From assembly GCA_016928395.1 (NCBI GenBank), contig JAFGKV010000296.1:1-37347 (forward strand): a DNA stretch of 37,347 nucleotides, written 5' to 3'. Source of the DNA: Candidatus Fermentibacterota bacterium (GTDB lineage: Bacteria > JAFGKV01). This document shows, one piece after another, positions 7,719-29,647 of this stretch. The notes under the pieces were generated by a model. The model saw nothing but the letters and a program-made list of their open reading frames with translations. It searched no databases and had not been told where the DNA came from. The translations under genes were made by a program, and so were the position numbers. The number at the start of each line of letters is the position of its first letter. Within the stretch, counting starts at the first letter, position 1.

Positions 7719-9632
7719 ATGATTATCGGCACTGCGGGGCACATCGATCACGGTAAGTCGGCCCTTGTCAAGGCCCTCACCGGCATAGACCCCGATCGAC
7801 TAAAGGAAGAACAGCTTCGCGGCATCACCATCGACCTGGGATTCGCTCATCTGTCGCTGGATGGGGGAGTGGCCGGGATAGTCGACGTCCCGGGCCACGA
7901 ACGCCTCATCCATAACATGCTGGCGGGCGCTGGCGGGATGGATCTGGCGCTGGTGGTCGTCGCGGCCGATGAGGGAGTCAAACCACAGACTCTCGAGCAT
8001 ATCGAGATCCTTGACCTGCTGGGGATTCGGGATGCCATCGGCGTCATCACCAAGATAGATTTGGTAGGAGATGATGAACGGGCCGTTGCGAGGCTGGAGC
8101 TGGAGGAATTGCTGGAGACCACAGCCATGGCGCACGCGCCCATTGTCGAGGTCTCGGCACTCACGGAGGAGGGATTGCCAGAATTGCGGGCCCTTCTGAA
8201 CGAACGCGCCGGGAAGTTGGACCGCAAGCCGTTGGATAGGCCGTTTCGCCTTCCGCTGGACAGGGTGTTCACCATTCAGGGATTCGGGACGGTCGTCACA
8301 GGCACCGCCGTGTCGGGACGAGTCAGTCTAGGCCAGAACCTTGACATCGTCCCCACAGGCGAGGAAGTGCGAGTACGCAGCATTGAGGTGCATGGAACCC
8401 GCAGGGATGAGGCGTGCGCGGGGGAACGGGTCGCCATGAACATCGCGGGGCGTAGACTCCAGTGCCGGCGCGGTTTTGTCCTCGCCGAGCGGGGGATCTT
8501 TGCAGGAACCGACTGCATGGACTGCCGCCTGCGAGTACTCAGGCCTGCTCCGAAGGGAAGGCGAAGCCTGGTGGTGCGGCTGCACCTCCATGCCTCGGAG
8601 GTCATGGCCAGAGTGGTCCCCCTGGAGGACGGCGTGCTGGTTCAGGAGGGCGAGGGGTATGTACAGATCCGCACCCGGGAACCAATCCCCGCCGTGCGGG
8701 GCGACCGGTTTGTCCTGCGCTCAGAGGATGACAGTTTTACGATGGGCGGCGGCGACGTGATTGATGCCTTTGCTCCGCGGCACGGACCCAAGCGCGGGCT
8801 TACCGCGCGAACGCTCCGGGGTATAGACCGCGTGGAGGACTCGCAGGCCTTTGATGCCTTTCTGGACCAACGTTCCGGAGGAGCCACTCCCCACGAGATC
8901 GCCCGGGTCCTGAACCTTCCCATGGCCGGTGTCAGCCACCTGGCCACAGAGCGTTGCCACGCGGGTACTGCGGTGCTGGCCACCGACGGCGCACGCTATG
9001 TGTCCCGCGGCATTCTTGATCACATGGCCTCCAGCGTTACCGGCATCGTGTCGCACTTCCACGGGGAGAACCCCATGCGACCGGCAATGGCGTTGGCGGA
9101 TCTTCGAAGCCGTTTCGAATCAAGGGTCTTCCCAGTCTTGGATACCGCGCTACAGGAACTGTCGGCCCGGCAGGTCATCGTGGTGGAAGCCGGTACCGTA
9201 CGATCAAGAGATCACATCGCGTCGTTCGACTCAGAGAGGGAAGGCACACGCCTGAGAGTGCTGGCCGCCTACCAGCAAGCGGGACTGCAGCCACCCGACC
9301 GGAAGACACTCATCGCGGAGCTTGCCCGGTGTGGTCTCCCCGATCCGTCTGGCGTGATCGAGTCTCTGATTCAAACCGGTGACATACTAGCCCTGACCCA
9401 TGAGTTACTCATGCATCGCAGCGTGCTGGATGATGCCAAAGGCCGGCTGCTCCCTCAGCTTCAGTCACCGGAAGGTGTCACGGTAGCCCAGGCCCGCGAG
9501 ATCCTGGGTACTACACGAAAGTACGCGGTTCCGCTCTTCGAGCTGCTTGATCGGCAAGGTTTTACCGTGCGGCGTGGGGATGTACGGATCCTTTCTCCCG
9601 CCCGGGGTGTTGTACGTCAAGACCAATCGTAG
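7719..9632 (+). CDS. selB: Selenocysteine-specific elongation factor SelB
   Basis: A 637-residue translational GTPase that delivers selenocysteinyl-tRNA to UGA codons marked by a SECIS hairpin. It begins [14 protein letters not shown] (G1 at 7-14), followed by RGITIDLGF in the switch I region, DVPGHE (G3) and TKIDL (G4). EF-Tu-like domains II and III follow, then a winged-helix C-terminal part from about 370 that binds the SECIS RNA. The length is typical of bacterial SelB. It has its own sigma-70-like promoter and a strong ribosome binding site, and the second sigma-54 activator starts 18 bases after its stop. No selA, selD, tRNA-Sec or obvious selenoprotein is in the window. Confidence 0.95.
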
Positions 9633-21732: not shown

Positions 21733-23751
21733 TCACAAGTCCGACAGCTTGATACCGACGATACGAAACGTACCCGAGATCCCCGGCAAGTCCAACAGGA
21801 CCGTATCGCCGACCTGGCGCCGAAGCAGAGGCTGCACCGCCGGGGCCCGATACGAGAACACGCCGGCATCCGGATCGCTCTCCCAGGGGCCGAGAATTGC
21901 GACCGTATGTTCGACTCCCGTCTCGTGGGCCACTGTGACTGCGCACCCCGGCCCGACCACGGAGGTGTTCACTCTCTCCGGCGTGAGAAGGCGCACGCGA
22001 GAGAGGTCTCGTTGGATCTCCTGGATCCGGGCAAGGATGCGCTCCTGCTGTTCTTTCGCCGCCTTGTACTCGAAGTTCTCCCGCAGATCGCCGTGTTCCC
22101 TGGCCTCGGCCAGCGCTGCCTTGTTCTGGGGGAGCTCCACGATGCTCAGGTGCTTCAGTTCGGCCGCCCTGATGTCCTGGCCTTTCACGGTGCTGTAGAT
22201 GACGTCTTCTGCGGGCCGGAGGTCAGGGAATCGGTCGTACACGTCGGCCCGGATCTCCTCCTTCAGGCTGACGGGGAGGCGAACCTCATTCAGGAAGCTC
22301 AAGACAGCCTGGGCCCTTTCCAGGCCCTCCTCCGCCACTCGTTGCAGTGCGCGGCTCTCTGCGACGTAGCTGGTAACGGGCCCGATGAGGCCGGCGGCCT
22401 CATCCAGAAGGTCCACCAGCCTCATGACGCGCTGGGCAAATGTCCCCGGCAGCGGAAACCCATCATCGGCCTTACGAACAAGCCAGAAATAGGCGGCAGC
22501 CCGCTCCGGCAGGCCGCGCTGCACCTCCAGGCCTACGACGGTTTTCTCCTCCTCACTCATCCGCCCCAGCAGATACTCCCAATCAGATGCATTGCATGAA
22601 CGCAGGAACAGCTCCCTGCGCACGGCCTCCGGATCGGCCTGTGCCTCAAGAAGACCCATGGCCTCACGCCGGAGGTCGGCGGAACGGACAGCCAGCACGA
22701 CATCTGCCGGGTCGGCCGCGGCATCCAACGCCTCCCGAACCTCGCTGTATCCGGCCGGGTCCCCCAGCCCTGCCAGAACCAGAAGAGCCTCGATACGCAG
22801 TGATGTACTCTTCCTCAGTGAGGCCACCCGTTCCCGCAAGACATCGCGGACCCCGTCGCGCAAAGCGGGATCCTTGGCCAATCTCGCGGCGTGGCGGATG
22901 ATCTCGCCGGGCGGAAGGGCTCGAAGCTCATCCAAGGCATCGGGCGGCCCGGCGGCGCCGGGTTCCACCCAGATAATACGCATCGGTTTGGCCAGGCCGA
23001 TGTGCAGACTGGGATCGTTCTTGGCCTCGGCCCGTGCCGTCGCCCACCATCCGCCCCACTCCTTGATGCCGATTAATGGCTCGATCAGCCGCTTCACGTC
23101 TTTTGGATCGGCTTCACCACCAAGGCTCCGCACCGCCAGCGCGAGAAGCTCCCTGGGCGGTATCGCCATAAGTGTGTCGAGCCGGTCCACGGTTAGCGCC
23201 TGAAGATGCCACGACGGCAACGGAGTCAAGGCTCGGATTGCCATGGCCCATGACATGCGATGACCCTTGCGTGACGCGAAATCCACGGCAACCTCCTCTG
23301 TCGCCGTCTCGAACTCCACCACTTTGCCGCTTCCCCAGGAGTCATGGAGGACATAGGCCCCGAGGCCAAGCCTCCGAAGAGCCTCAAAGCGGTCCCAGGC
23401 CTCCGCCACCGGCTTCTGGTCAAATTCAGAAAACGTCAGCATCCGGTCTGCCGTCGCTGGATCAGTGGCACTCTGGATCAGCAACCGTCGCACCAGATCT
23501 CGGACATCGGGATTCGCTGGCGCCAGTTCCACGGCAAGACGCAATGCCGCTCCGGTACCTGCGTGGTCTCGTCTGCCGAGAAGCTCGCCGGCCAGTACGG
23601 CCAAAAGCTCCAGCGCTTTCTTCCGATCATGCTTCGCGGCTGCTGTTGCCGCCTCCAGAAACGGCTCGATCTCTGCCTCATCGGATGCAAGGCACTCCAG
23701 CCAGGCATCCTCCAGAGCTGCCCAGTTCTGTGCGTCAGCCAATGTCTTCAT
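21733..23751 (-). CDS. GreA-domain fusion protein
   Basis: A 672-residue protein whose last 145 residues or so form a complete GreA/GreB transcript-cleavage factor. It has the coiled-coil tip with EHGDLRENFEY (552-562), including the acidic residues that GreA inserts into the RNA polymerase secondary channel, and then the FKBP-like C-terminal domain. The long N-terminal part begins with helical repeats. It contains a small beta-rich module (HDSWGSGKVVEFE...VDF..RKGHRM, about 125-160) and a further helical region. Large GreA fusions of similar layout are known in spirochaetes. I chose ATG 23751, overlapping the UbiA-like stop in an ATGA, with GGGAGAA upstream. It probably rescues stalled RNA polymerase; the role of the N-terminal part is unknown. 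Confidence 0.85.
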   Translation of the reverse strand: MKTLADAQNWAALEDAWLECLASDEAEIEPFLEAATAAAKHDRKKALELLAVLAGELLGRRDHAGTGAALRLAVELAPANPDVRDLVRRLLIQSATDPATADRMLTFSEFDQKPVAEAWDRFEALRRLGLGAYVLHDSWGSGKVVEFETATEEVAVDFASRKGHRMSWAMAIRALTPLPSWHLQALTVDRLDTLMAIPPRELLALAVRSLGGEADPKDVKRLIEPLIGIKEWGGWWATARAEAKNDPSLHIGLAKPMRIIWVEPGAAGPPDALDELRALPPGEIIRHAARLAKDPALRDGVRDVLRERVASLRKSTSLRIEALLVLAGLGDPAGYSEVREALDAAADPADVVLAVRSADLRREAMGLLEAQADPEAVRRELFLRSCNASDWEYLLGRMSEEEKTVVGLEVQRGLPERAAAYFWLVRKADDGFPLPGTFAQRVMRLVDLLDEAAGLIGPVTSYVAESRALQRVAEEGLERAQAVLSFLNEVRLPVSLKEEIRADVYDRFPDLRPAEDVIYSTVKGQDIRAAELKHLSIVELPQNKAALAEAREHGDLRENFEYKAAKEQQERILARIQEIQRDLSRVRLLTPERVNTSVVGPGCAVTVAHETGVEHTVAILGPWESDPDAGVFSYRAPAVQPLLRRQVGDTVLLDLPGISGTFRIVGIKLSDL

Positions 23752-26024
23752 GGAACTTCTCCCGTCTTGCCCATCATTCGTTCATATACCTTCCGAACAA
23801 AGCGCACGTCTCGCTGTAGATCAGCCGATGCGGGATCCAGGGTTTGTGCGTGAAGGATGGATTCCAGCGCTTCCCGGGGCCGGCTGGCGGCTAGATGTGC
23901 CCGGGCGAGTTCAGCCCATACCGCCGCGGAGCCGGGCCAGCGCTCTATTCCCCGATCCCGCAGCACCGCTGCTGCCTTGGCAAGACCCATGGCGTCGGCA
24001 TGGCGTGCCGCAGCAGCAATGAGCGATCCGTCTTCACGGCCGCCTGCCACCGCTCCGGCCAGGGCAAGGCACCACTGCTCCCGGGAGTCGATCCTCATCA
24101 ATGGCTCCAGCCCGGCTGAGGCGGCCAGACCGGGGCACACCCCCGCCGCGGCGGCCTGACCCAGCAAAAACGCGGCGTGGCTGGGTTCCAGCGTCTGGCT
24201 GACCCGCGGCAAGAGCCATGGATAGAGGCCTGCCAGCGGCCAGACCTCAGGCAAGACCTCAGGCGTCACTCCACCGGGGCATACGGCAGAGACGGCCAGG
24301 GCGGATTCCGGGGATCGCACTGCCAGGGCTTCGCAGAAGTCCTCCAATGATCCCCGCGCCCGGTGCAGCCATACGCGGTCCCGCGCTACTCCCACGGCGA
24401 TTCCCAATAACGCGATCAAGAGGATGAGTAGTGCCGCTCGCTCAGACCATACCCGCCGCAACACTACTGCGACCGCGCACACCACACCCAGCACCATGCC
24501 CGGCACCAGAAGCGCTCCAATGCCGGAGAGCACCGGGAACACCGCAAAGGACAGGAGCGCACAGCAGGCCAACACCGGCACTGCCCGTGGACCCATAGCA
24601 ACCGGAAAACTCCAGACTCCCGCGGCGCGGTCTGCCGCCTCATCGGCGATGTCCTTAATGCCGAATCCCAAGAAAAAGGACACCCACAGGGCACCAAGGA
24701 ATCTCCACGGCACAATCTGGAAGACCCATTCCCTCCCGATCACCGCCGCGCCGGCAACCACCGCCAGCATTGCCGCCATGGCCACTACTGCGGTGCCTAC
24801 CAGGGGAATCCGCTTGAGCCGAATCGGCTCCCATGAGTAGCCGGCCGCCAGTACAAGCTGTGCCAGCATGATAAGAAATACCGCATACTGCACGCACAGA
24901 GCCAGAGCAAGGCCCATCAAAGCCAGTACCCCCGACACCACTCGCGCGTGCTCGCGCCCCATCCCTTCCCACAGCGCACGGCGGCGGGGCGACGCGCCGT
25001 CCCACGGTTCGTCGGCGAGATCATTGCTCAATGCCGCCGACTGGAAGCACAACACCTGCGCAACCACTACCGCCACCACGGAGAGCCAGTCGCCAGCCCG
25101 GGAAAACGCCGAGGTAATCCAAGGTCTCTGCAGGGTGAATATCACCCACACCCCAAGCCCGGTCAGACCACCGTACATCAGAGAGCGAAGCCACCGGAAC
25201 CCCCGCATCCATGCCCGAAGAGTCCGGGCGCTCGCCCGATGCCAGACCGCCAGCGCCAGCACGCCTGTCGCCAGCATGTTGACAATGGCGAAGCGATGGC
25301 TCTGCAAGTTGCCGAATCCGCCGATGTGCATCCATCCTTCGGCGCCGACGCCCCCGGCCAATGGAAGACTCCCTAGAACCATGAGCCCGAAGAAGGCGCA
25401 TACTGCCCCGGCCAGGCCGCGAATCGCACCCTGCCATGCCCCCGCGTAGATACCCACGCCGAGGCATGCCAGGGCTATCTCCACCCGCATGCCGGGCGTG
25501 ACCCCGGGAAGCCCAGTGGACGTCGTGAAGAATCCCTTGAGTACAACACCCATCTCGCGGACTGTGCCCAGATAGCTCATGTCATAACCCCGGCCCCCGG
25601 ACAACAGCGCGTCAAGCACCGGCGGTAGAAGAGTCAAGGGCCATAGCTTGGCCGTGGTGATGGCTACAGCCGTCACCGGGCGGCCCGACCACCGGTGCAT
25701 GAGCAGAACAAGGAGAAGAAACGCTGCTGCGTAGAAGGCCGGGAAGTGCAGAAAGAGCATGGACTGCGACACTCCGGGCACTGCCCGGATGCCCAGCAAA
25801 TGTTCGCGCTCCAGTACCCCTTCCAGAATGCCCCGGAGAAAGATGACCGAAGCCACCAGCCCCACCAGCCTCTGCCAGGGGCAGGTGAGATACTCCAGCC
25901 TGGTCAGGAGACGAATCATGGCCGGTGATGCCCTGCCCACGGGGGCCGGCGAGAGAAGCTCGCGGGGGAACAGGGTAGGGATGCGGAAAACGGGCGGGTA
26001 TCGAGGGTCATGCCCCTCGTTCAT
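23748..26024 (-). CDS. UbiA-family prenyltransferase fused to extra membrane domain and TPR tail
   Basis: A protein of about 758 residues in three parts. An N-terminal membrane region of about 280 residues has several hydrophobic helices and no recognisable family. A UbiA-type prenyltransferase core follows at about 285-560. It has the two aspartate motifs NDLADEPWD (334-342) and KDIADEAAD (457-465) and the YSWEPIRLKRIPL segment typical of the family. The C-terminal soluble tail has a TPR-like repeat. UbiA enzymes move a polyprenyl chain onto an aromatic or sugar acceptor in the membrane. The frame is open to 26066; I prefer the ATG at 26024, which overlaps the upstream gene by 17 bases. No strong ribosome binding site decides the start. 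Confidence 0.7.
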   Translation of the reverse strand: MNEGHDPRYPPVFRIPTLFPRELLSPAPVGRASPAMIRLLTRLEYLTCPWQRLVGLVASVIFLRGILEGVLEREHLLGIRAVPGVSQSMLFLHFPAFYAAAFLLLVLLMHRWSGRPVTAVAITTAKLWPLTLLPPVLDALLSGGRGYDMSYLGTVREMGVVLKGFFTTSTGLPGVTPGMRVEIALACLGVGIYAGAWQGAIRGLAGAVCAFFGLMVLGSLPLAGGVGAEGWMHIGGFGNLQSHRFAIVNMLATGVLALAVWHRASARTLRAWMRGFRWLRSLMYGGLTGLGVWVIFTLQRPWITSAFSRAGDWLSVVAVVVAQVLCFQSAALSNDLADEPWDGASPRRRALWEGMGREHARVVSGVLALMGLALALCVQYAVFLIMLAQLVLAAGYSWEPIRLKRIPLVGTAVVAMAAMLAVVAGAAVIGREWVFQIVPWRFLGALWVSFFLGFGIKDIADEAADRAAGVWSFPVAMGPRAVPVLACCALLSFAVFPVLSGIGALLVPGMVLGVVCAVAVVLRRVWSERAALLILLIALLGIAVGVARDRVWLHRARGSLEDFCEALAVRSPESALAVSAVCPGGVTPEVLPEVWPLAGLYPWLLPRVSQTLEPSHAAFLLGQAAAAGVCPGLAASAGLEPLMRIDSREQWCLALAGAVAGGREDGSLIAAAARHADAMGLAKAAAVLRDRGIERWPGSAAVWAELARAHLAASRPREALESILHAQTLDPASADLQRDVRFVRKVYERMMGKTGEVP

Positions 26025-26646
26025 CCCGGGATAACGCGGCCAGTGCCCCCACCGCAACAAAGGCAAAAACTGGCGCCGCGGCCAGCAGCAGAACGGCGAC
26101 CGTCACGGCTCCCGGTGGCAGCAGAGGCTGGACCCGTGCCGTGCACCATGCCCGAAACGAGGCGCCGGGATGTGATTCCATCGCATGGTAGGTGTGCACC
26201 ACGGGTCGTTCCTGAGTCACTCCTGCAATGGTCACCGGCGTGCTGCTCAAGAGGACTGGGCTCCCATGGGCATCCACCGTGAGCCGGGCCTTGAGGGTCG
26301 CGTGATGGGGAAGGGTGAGGGGGCGAAAACGGCCGGTCAAGACACCGTGGCGCGATGTTAAATCTACGGCCGAAACGCGGTCTCCGTCAGGCAGCTCGAA
26401 CAACTCCAGCCGCATTCCAGGCGGGCGCTGCTGCTGCAAATGCTCTATCCCGATTCCCGAGAGCCAAGGCTGGGGCGAGGTGAAAAAGAACTCAACAACC
26501 GCCCCGGGACGCAGCACCACGGGCATCCGTGACACCTCCACCGCCACTCTCCAATAGGTTCCCGTGACGAAGCGACCCAAGAGAAAGACGCTGATTATGG
26601 ACAGAAGGACAGCGAATCCCCACACGACGCTGTGGCGCGACCTCAT
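26008..26646 (-). CDS. Two-helix membrane protein of unknown function
   Basis: A 212-residue protein with a membrane helix at about 6-28, a beta-rich extracytoplasmic region of about 145 residues and a second helix near 180-205, followed by a short charged tail. I do not recognise the family. The central region has repeated valine/leucine strands and no cysteine pair or catalytic motif that I can name. The start at 26646 overlaps the preceding stop in an ATGA, which places it firmly in the same operon as the multi-helix protein upstream and the UbiA fusion downstream. A periplasmic partner of the membrane complex is a guess only. Confidence 0.7.
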   Translation of the reverse strand: MRSRHSVVWGFAVLLSIISVFLLGRFVTGTYWRVAVEVSRMPVVLRPGAVVEFFFTSPQPWLSGIGIEHLQQQRPPGMRLELFELPDGDRVSAVDLTSRHGVLTGRFRPLTLPHHATLKARLTVDAHGSPVLLSSTPVTIAGVTQERPVVHTYHAMESHPGASFRAWCTARVQPLLPPGAVTVAVLLLAAAPVFAFVAVGALAALSRDERGA

Positions 26647-27854
26647 GCGAACAACCTCGGCAGGACCCAGTGGAGTAACGCAGCCCAATCAAGAATGACC
26701 GCAACCGCGGCCAGCGCGACCCACCCCACGCTCTGGCGCCACAATTCCCTACAGCCCTGGACGATCAGATACGCCATCAGCGGGCTCGTGGACAGAGCCG
26801 CCATGCCGGGCGAGGGCCAGATCCTCCCCAGCAGCAGAGAAAAAAGTACCGCGGCCCCGATGGCGAACGCCATGGGCACCTTCTTGCCGCGCAGGCCGAT
26901 CACCAGCCCCGCCAATGCCACCACCCCCACCGCGCCCCACACAACGAGAAGCACCACGGGAACCGGCAGCAGAGCCGACGGTGCTGCGAACAATACTCCC
27001 TGCCACGGAGCGGCCGGGGCTGCACGCTGCATCGTGAGTAGCCGGAACACCCAAAGCACCAGACCGATCACGCTGAGAACAATGGTCGCCCACCGGGTGA
27101 TCCGCGGTAGAAGGCCCTGCCTGGGCGCCCCTGCAGCAGCGACGACCGCCAGTGTTACCGCACATGCCACGCCGCCCTGCACATCCACCGATGACATGGC
27201 CAATCCTACCAGTGCCGCCCATGGAGCAGCCTCCCATGCGCTTTTCATGCGGGTCAGGCACAGAATCCACGCACCCCACAAACATGCCACGAAGGCTGAC
27301 GGGCCCAGCAGGCCGGCGCCCATCCCTGCGGCCGGCCCATACATCACCAGAATCATGCCCGCCAAAGCCGCAAGGTGCGGTGCCGAGCCTTCTCGGAGCG
27401 CGCGGTATGTTAGGACCGCGGCGAATGCGAGAAACGCGATGCCGACTAACCGCATGAGCACCCACCGCCACCGGATATCAGTGGCCAGCAGCCGCGAGAG
27501 CAACCGGCTCAACAGAGAGTGGTAGCTGGATGAAGGCGGGGAGGACACCTCGGCCGGTACCAAAACGGCGGTCGTGATCCCGGCCAAGGCGGCGTTCAGC
27601 CTCCGCAGATCGAGAGCGCTCTTCACCGGCAGGTGGCCCGCCTCCAGTCGGGCGAAACGGGCAAGTTCGGCCAAGTCCTTGGGGGCCAGACGCTCCATCC
27701 CGGGGTCAAACGCCCCTCCCGCCCGGCTGATGGCCAGATACTGCCCGACCTCCTCGGGCAATGCTCCGGGCGGGAGCCAGAGGGCCCAGGTTGCCTGCTT
27801 GAGTATTCCGGCGGCCAACACCGCTACCGCGACACACGGGATGATGCGTCTCAT
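26643..27854 (-). CDS. Polytopic membrane protein of unknown function
   Basis: A 403-residue protein with an N-terminal hydrophobic segment, a soluble loop of about 110 residues, and roughly eight further membrane helices to the C-terminus. The loop contains EEVGQYLAISRAGGAFDPGM and a leucine/arginine-rich stretch. The layout recalls integral membrane glycosyltransferase-like or polymerase-like proteins, but I see no diagnostic motif. I chose ATG 27854, with AGGAGAGGG about ten bases upstream; the frame runs open to 27968 into the end of ispG without sign of coding. It begins 110 bases after ispG and is coupled to the next gene. Confidence 0.7.
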   Translation of the reverse strand: MRRIIPCVAVAVLAAGILKQATWALWLPPGALPEEVGQYLAISRAGGAFDPGMERLAPKDLAELARFARLEAGHLPVKSALDLRRLNAALAGITTAVLVPAEVSSPPSSSYHSLLSRLLSRLLATDIRWRWVLMRLVGIAFLAFAAVLTYRALREGSAPHLAALAGMILVMYGPAAGMGAGLLGPSAFVACLWGAWILCLTRMKSAWEAAPWAALVGLAMSSVDVQGGVACAVTLAVVAAAGAPRQGLLPRITRWATIVLSVIGLVLWVFRLLTMQRAAPAAPWQGVLFAAPSALLPVPVVLLVVWGAVGVVALAGLVIGLRGKKVPMAFAIGAAVLFSLLLGRIWPSPGMAALSTSPLMAYLIVQGCRELWRQSVGWVALAAVAVILDWAALLHWVLPRLFA

Positions 27855-27964
27855 CCGCAACCCTCTCCTGGCATGCCCGTCGTGATCCCGGATCACGACG
27901 ACGGGATCTCGGGGTGAGTGAAACACGGCAGCAAGGTATGGTATCAGGATCCCTACGTCAGGTC

Positions 27965-29647
27965 TCAATGGTGCCCGGCAGCGCGTTCCGATTCGAGGGC
28001 ATCAGCCAGGGCTTCCAGGCGAAGAGTCGCTTCCTCCACAGGCACACCGTGGGCCACCAATCGCCCCCCAGCATACAGGGCAACCTTACCCTGCCCTTCG
28101 CCGACGCAGCCGATATCTGCGCCCCGCATCTCGCCGGGGCCATTGACGATGCATCCCATCACCCCGACGGTGAGACCCGCCCGGGCTCCCAATCGCCGGC
28201 GTACCTCTGTTGCCAGCTCTGCCACGTCGATACGGCACCGGCCGCACTGGGGACATGCGATGATATGAGCGCACCACTGGCCTGTGCCTAACCCCTGGAG
28301 GATATCCAAGGCCGAGGCACGATCGTCCGCCTCGTCAATACCATGGTGAAGCTCGAGGCGTTGGATGAGACCGGCTTCCACCAGTTGCGCCAGATCGACC
28401 ATGGCCCTCAGAAGATCAGACGCCAAGGGAGTCACGACCTCCCACGTGATGGGCTGCGCAATTCGTGCAAGCACCTCCGTGAGCCGGTCGGCACCCCCTG
28501 CCGTGGGCCCGGGCAGCGGAAGCTGAAGTTCGATGATATCTCTAGTTTGAGCCGAATCCAGCACAGCCGCAAGGATGGTCGCCAGGTCCCCCGGTGACGG
28601 AGGCGCAGCAGTAACTCTCAGGATAGCCGGCTCTCCGGGCAGCCTGTCCGGGTCGGAATGGCTCACCACCCGGACTCTGCGGCCAGAGACCGGATCATAG
28701 ACGTGGCCGTCTTCGCCGTCGAACCTGATGCGGGTGAACGGCCACGCGTGCTCCCGAAGGCTCACCACCTGAACTCCCTCAACGGGCGTGACGCCGCGGG
28801 GTGTGCCACCGCGGGGCGCGCCGGGGATCAGAAAAAGCCGGGCCGCATTCACCAGCGCATACGCGACGGGCAGTTCCCGTTCGGGTGGCTCAGCCAGGGA
28901 AACCCGGATGGTGTCGGCGATGCCGTGGCGCAGAAGCAGGCCGATGCCGACGGCGCTTCGCGTGCGGCCCTGCAGCCCGAAACCTGCCTCGGTCACCCCC
29001 ACGTGAAGGGGGTAGTCACAGCACGATGCAATGCCAAGGTTCGCGCGTACGACATCCCACGGATCCGACGACTTCAATGAGATCACCAGATCGAGGAATC
29101 CTTCCTTCTCGGCGATATGCACATACTCCACCGCAGACTGCACCATGGCGTCAACGCCACGTCCGAAGCCCTCCACGATGCGCCGCGACAGACTGCCGTG
29201 GTTGACCCCAACGCGTACCGCCCTGCCGGCGCTACGGGCGGCGCGAAACAATGACCGGAGCGGTTCCAGATCGTCGGGTGCTGGAAACGCACCCACCGCC
29301 CGCGACAGCGGCGGCTCAAGCAGATTGCCCGGATTCACCCGGATCTTGTCCACCAGCGGCAAGGCCTCCAACGCCATGGCGAGGGAGAAATGGATGTCAC
29401 CCACCAGAGGGACGGGCTCGTGATGTGACGAAAGCCGGGAGCGCAGCGCGGGAAGAGCCTTGAGAGCGCGCCGGTTCGGCAGTGCGATTCGCACCAGGCG
29501 GGATCCCGCGCCGTGCAAGCGCAGAACCTGCTCCGCAGTGGCGCCGATATCGGTGGTCGGTGTGGAGGTCATGCTCTGCACCACCGGTAAAGCGCCCCCT
29601 CCGATGGTCACCTTCCCCACCGTGACCGGCCGCGTCACTCGCCGCAT
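27965..29647 (-). CDS. ispG: IspG, HMBPP synthase (large form)
   Basis: A 560-residue (E)-4-hydroxy-3-methylbut-2-enyl-diphosphate synthase, the penultimate step of the methylerythritol phosphate isoprenoid pathway. Iron-sulfur ligands are Cys465 and Cys468 in CPQCGR, Cys499 in MGCIVNGPGE, and Glu506. Their spacing matches the E. coli enzyme (Cys270, Cys273, Cys305, Glu312). The N-terminal TIM barrel begins with VTIGG and VQSMTSTPT. E. coli IspG is 372 residues; the extra middle region here (about 280-420) matches the large form known from plants and Bacteroidetes/Chlorobi. It stands 39 bases after the DUF362 gene and is followed by the membrane-protein/UbiA genes. Confidence 0.93.
   Translation of the reverse strand: MRRVTRPVTVGKVTIGGGALPVVQSMTSTPTTDIGATAEQVLRLHGAGSRLVRIALPNRRALKALPALRSRLSSHHEPVPLVGDIHFSLAMALEALPLVDKIRVNPGNLLEPPLSRAVGAFPAPDDLEPLRSLFRAARSAGRAVRVGVNHGSLSRRIVEGFGRGVDAMVQSAVEYVHIAEKEGFLDLVISLKSSDPWDVVRANLGIASCCDYPLHVGVTEAGFGLQGRTRSAVGIGLLLRHGIADTIRVSLAEPPERELPVAYALVNAARLFLIPGAPRGGTPRGVTPVEGVQVVSLREHAWPFTRIRFDGEDGHVYDPVSGRRVRVVSHSDPDRLPGEPAILRVTAAPPSPGDLATILAAVLDSAQTRDIIELQLPLPGPTAGGADRLTEVLARIAQPITWEVVTPLASDLLRAMVDLAQLVEAGLIQRLELHHGIDEADDRASALDILQGLGTGQWCAHIIACPQCGRCRIDVAELATEVRRRLGARAGLTVGVMGCIVNGPGEMRGADIGCVGEGQGKVALYAGGRLVAHGVPVEEATLRLEALADALESERAAGHH

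Follow-up and report, generated by a model that had tools for sequence, protein, structure and literature searches.

A predicted UbiA-superfamily prenyltransferase fused to an additional membrane domain and a TPR-like tail in Candidatus Fermentibacterota

Membrane prenyltransferases of the UbiA superfamily (PF01040; for example 4tq4 and 4od5) share a common fold of nine transmembrane helices, which carries two aspartate motifs (NDxxDxxxD and DxxxD). Both the fold and the motifs recur in a protein of 723 residues encoded on a contig from a Candidatus Fermentibacterota bacterium (JAFGKV010000296.1; the whole stretch of 37,347 nucleotides that was analysed is hereafter denoted the window), whereas an N-terminal membrane domain and a TPR tail are this protein's own. 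The nearest solved structures by sequence are those of DGGGP synthase (6m31/7bpu) and chlorophyll a synthase (9sau). A search of a literature library found no description of such a fusion.

The gene lies on the minus strand of the window, in the order DUF362 protein, ispG, polytopic protein, two-helix protein, UbiA fusion, GreA fusion, radical-SAM protein and sulfatase-like protein. The five genes from ispG to the GreA fusion were confirmed at the places originally stated, and the features of this region are as follows.

27965-29647, minus strand: ispG (gcpE), long form (GcpE 353.8 bits; TIGR00612 361 bits against a cut-off of 280)
27879-27899, no strand assigned: perfect 21-base palindrome GTCGTGATCCGGGATCACGAC in the gap separating ispG from the polytopic gene (one central mismatch on the other strand)
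26643-27854, minus strand: gene for a polytopic protein, distantly DUF2142/GT-C-like by hhalign, with clear matches confined to its own phylum
26008-26646, minus strand: gene for a two-helix, membrane-anchored protein, with clear matches confined to its own phylum
23748-25919, minus strand: membrane domain-UbiA-TPR fusion, 723 residues from a corrected start at 25919 (alignment with the G001 orthologue; PF01040; AlphaFold)
25224-25919, minus strand: N-terminal domain of the fusion, residues 1-232, six predicted transmembrane helices, without a Pfam match, conserved residues on the predicted outer side
24378-25220, minus strand: UbiA prenyltransferase domain, residues 234-514, nine transmembrane helices (PF01040; fold match 4tq4)
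24999-25025, minus strand: first aspartate motif, N299-D307, NDLADEPWD (N299, D303 and D307 invariant in 11 aligned intact-site fusions)
24630-24653, minus strand: second aspartate motif, D423-D430, DIADEAAD (D423, D426 and D430 invariant in the same 11)
23763-24146, minus strand: TPR-like helical tail, residues 592-719, predicted to be extracytoplasmic from helix count and loop charge (TPR folds)
21733-23751, minus strand: GreA fusion with a long N-terminal extension (matches to the GreA N and C domains)

Overlapping ATGA junctions had been proposed to join the genes from the polytopic protein to the GreA fusion. Such junctions are present at 26646/26643 (polytopic/two-helix) and 23751/23748 (UbiA/GreA), but not between the two-helix and UbiA genes, where the two-helix gene ends in an ATGA (26011-26008) that is not in the UbiA frame. 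Similarity of the UbiA fusion to its counterpart in a sister genome (G001) begins at the ATG at 25919, with none further upstream, so the gap between the two genes is 88 bases; the corresponding gap in G001 is 94 bases. ispG is the next gene upstream in order, but 110 bases, the palindrome among them, separate it from the polytopic ATG at 27854. The palindrome is the sole instance of its kind in the window. In the sequence scan, promoter-like sites occurred at chance level and terminator-like sites barely above it. Elsewhere in the window (7719-9632) lies a gene for SelB, the selenocysteine elongation factor (343 bits against a cut-off of 242), which suggests that this genome uses selenoproteins.

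On the basis of its sequence and model, the product of 23748-25919 is predicted to be a membrane prenyltransferase of the UbiA superfamily, built of three parts in a combination not described before. The UbiA domain scores 77.9 bits with PF01040 (cut-off 34.2). An AlphaFold model of the fusion built from 19 relatives (pLDDT 85.3, pTM 0.82) places residues 234-512, within this domain, close to the UbiA structure 4tq4 (Z 22.9, rmsd 3.2 over 259 residues) and residues 1-232 in six long helices. The presence of both aspartate motifs had been anticipated, and the unusual character of the protein, with an extra membrane domain and a TPR tail on UbiA, is borne out by this architecture; the extra domain is about 232 residues long, however, rather than 280. 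The tail is well supported as TPR by fold, as a search with the whole fusion returned many TPR domains at Z of about 15 over it, and by the strong scores of its homologues, but the Pfam match on the window protein itself is weak (E 0.16). Residues 1-232 were barely sampled in that search; the domain belongs to no Pfam family and its profile matched no PDB sequence. With 15 membrane helices and a cytoplasmic N-terminus, the aspartate motifs would lie at the cytoplasmic face and the TPR tail outside. The short outer loops carry little positive charge, in agreement with this predicted topology; the two long outer loops contain as many positive residues as some inner loops and are neutral on the matter, loop charge alone not being decisive.

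When 47 aligned members of the fusion family were sorted by their aspartate motifs, 22 had both and 25 did not; 19 of the 25 come from one phylum, so the motif-less sequences do not represent independent events. Ten residues of the N-terminal domain (R29, E33, H58, P100, D103, Y116, G143, R145, E147 and P186, window numbering) reach 92-100% conservation in each of the two groups, and all ten are present in the window protein. In the predicted topology each of them would lie in an outer helix half or an outer loop. Position 133, a proline in 95% and 100% of the two groups, was left out of the ten because the window protein has threonine there; position 158, in an inner half, is tyrosine in 100% and 84%, which is below the 92% limit in the motif-less group. 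The UbiA domain behaves differently. Aspartates are lost from the motif-less group by definition, but the six residues R242, R245, Y249, R314, S362 and K369 played no part in the sorting, and their conservation is 95-100% in the 22 intact-motif proteins and 0-8% in the 25 others.

This division bears on whether the family is primarily catalytic. It might instead consist mainly of sensors or scaffolds, in which the working parts are the N-terminal domain and the TPR tail while the UbiA domain binds a prenyl lipid and catalysis is optional and repeatedly lost; retention of the N-terminal residues in the roughly half of the members that lack UbiA motifs would fit such a role. So would two short membrane proteins that match the N-terminal-domain profile and have no UbiA motifs recognisable by eye (L093 1036-2031, 331 residues; L094 1426-2559, 377 residues). 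In the other half, to which the window protein belongs, the whole active site is strictly conserved, which argues against such a role, and we consider it unlikely as an account of the family.

The N-terminal domain was found in 18 of 326 genera (386 genomes sampled), and occurs also without the TPR tail. Every one of the 20 genomes from the phylum of G071 contains it, 16 of them in two or more copies, and 15 of these 16 pair an intact-motif copy with a motif-less copy. In the sixteenth (G396), the open frame of the second fusion copy (L159 7835-8944) is just 369 residues, where the copies of its relatives are full-length. A plasmid collection searched with a fusion UbiA domain gave no match.

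To place the UbiA domain among described enzymes, a reference tree of 29 rows was used, in which branches are long, support is modest and four references were limited to those parts of solved chains that aligned. A branch (69/62) separates the fusion UbiA domains, one member of which lies outside the core, from the representatives of MenA, CyoE, UbiA, DPPR, DGGGPS and ChlG; the window domain groups with eight others at 95/98. Within this small tree and at that support (69/62), the fusion thus does not fall into a known menaquinone or haem prenyltransferase clade; a place inside such a clade had been named in advance as one outcome that would refute the original proposal. Nor does it group with E. 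coli MenA, and neither the menA nor the cyoE_ctaB model is among its family matches. The genome encodes a separate MenA-like paralog (94 bits against a cut-off of 102), which groups with E. coli MenA at 100/100, as well as a DPPR synthase (decaprenyl-phosphate phosphoribosyltransferase) paralog elsewhere. For each NCBIfam UbiA model listed, the score of the fusion falls below the cut-off.

Among solved relatives, the profile of the fusion UbiA domain scores best with DGGGP synthase (85 bits), followed by chlorophyll a synthase (73 bits). The protein could on these grounds be an enzyme like one of the two, with an ether- or ester-linked prenyl lipid as its product and with the extra domain and tail as mere anchors. 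Against the family models, though, it scores far below the curated cut-offs (43.6 bits against 296 for the DGGGP synthase model NF009521; 38.2 against 313 for the chlorophyll synthase model NF005742), and GGGP synthase (PF01884) has no match in the three genomes of the phylum, that of the window included. The invariant polar residues of the extra domain are, moreover, ill-suited to a plain anchor, and we regard this account as quite improbable. An archaeal-lipid pathway was set aside because the search of these genomes gave no GGGP synthase match.

The phylum of the window genome (G000) was sampled by three genomes, G000, G001 and G002, the last being 98% complete and from the same family as the window genome. 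When the four-gene order was looked for in other genomes, it was found entire in G001, with protein identities of 60% (UbiA), 62% (GreA), 46% (polytopic) and 41% (two-helix). Coding by chance is excluded by this, because the same genes encode homologous proteins in the same order. The order of ispG, polytopic, two-helix, GreA-fusion, radical-SAM and sulfatase genes is kept in G002, from whose cluster the UbiA fusion is missing; neither of two profiles of the N-terminal domain finds a match anywhere in that genome. The UbiA fusion is therefore not essential in this family, as G002 lives without the gene. The GreA fusion, by comparison, is kept with its N-terminal extension in all three genomes (43% identical in G002). 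Between the GreA-fusion and radical-SAM genes of G002 lies a gene for a Ser/Thr protein kinase (L021 7929-10382), with none at that place in the window. In other phyla the genes flanking the fusion, most of which lie on the opposite strand, encode secreted proteins or phosphodiesterases or are polysaccharide genes.

The original prediction took the four genes for one conserved system. The membrane genes are not conserved with the UbiA fusion, since G002 keeps the partners without it and it recurs in other phyla without them, and on both counts the evidence does not bear out a four-gene system. The neighbours are thus not a required set: ispG and the genes for the GT-C-like protein, the two-helix protein and GreA are local neighbours of the fusion rather than obligatory parts. 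A related proposal would make the linked genes a dedicated pathway for a prenyl lipid or lipid-linked sugar, in which IspG supplies isoprenoid, the UbiA domain attaches a prenyl chain, and the GT-C-like and two-helix proteins use the product outside the cell. The gene order shared by G000 and G001, the ATGA overlaps and the resemblance of the polytopic protein to DUF2142 proteins speak for it. The same genomic contexts tell against it, however, as does the fact that the genome already encodes a DPPR synthase and other DUF2142-like proteins, and we find such a pathway decidedly unlikely.

DUF2142 proteins belong to the GT-C type of membrane glycosyltransferases. The polytopic protein, which by itself has no Pfam match, aligns with DUF2142-like proteins at an hhalign probability of 92% over 159 columns, most of these proteins being from the same genomes. 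It resembles DUF2142 (PF09913)/GT-C in the first helix and the PP...E loop that follows, as aligned, but the position of the conserved aspartate is occupied by E, D or N in the three polytopic orthologues. Its profile has good matches only in the three genomes of the phylum and none among PDB sequences, and a fold search with its AlphaFold model, which is poor (pLDDT 50), returned no useful hits. The two-helix protein has no family match, and its profile has clear matches in the same three genomes only.

For the fusion itself, we favour a two-sided prenyltransferase with three working parts. From the fold and motifs, the UbiA site would take up an isoprenyl diphosphate with Mg2+ at the cytoplasmic face and transfer the prenyl group to a lipophilic acceptor; the menaquinone ring, haem and archaeal GGGP are each improbable in that role. 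At the outer face, the N-terminal domain may bind or process that prenyl lipid or one related to it, while a periplasmic partner would be held by the TPR tail; predicted topology and conservation point to both roles. Taken as a whole, with all three parts, this explanation could equally well prove right or wrong. For the N-terminal domain, it is the place of the conserved residues in the predicted topology that suggests handling of lipid at the outer face.

Membrane members of the Lipocone superfamily are described as carrying conserved polar residues within a pocket, and the head groups of outer-leaflet lipids are their predicted targets (eLife RP108061, PMC12419801). We take the comparison of the N-terminal domain with this superfamily as a lead only; set against VanZ, one Lipocone family, the domain showed no profile similarity (hhalign probability 0.1%). 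A bolder and tentative proposal, which we would not expect to hold in full, is that the N-terminal domain binds or processes lipid at the outer face, as a domain of an undescribed kind, and is the defining part of a family of two-sided membrane machines: the UbiA domain would make a prenyl lipid at the cytoplasmic face, the outer pocket would handle it, and the paired copies with dead sites would regulate or receive the same lipid.

If the two-sided prenyltransferase is right, it would represent a type of prenyltransferase whose extra domain is conserved independently of catalysis, with intact and degenerate copies kept across a phylum, and it would point to a prenyl lipid or a lipid-sensing function not yet characterised, in bacteria that have been little studied.
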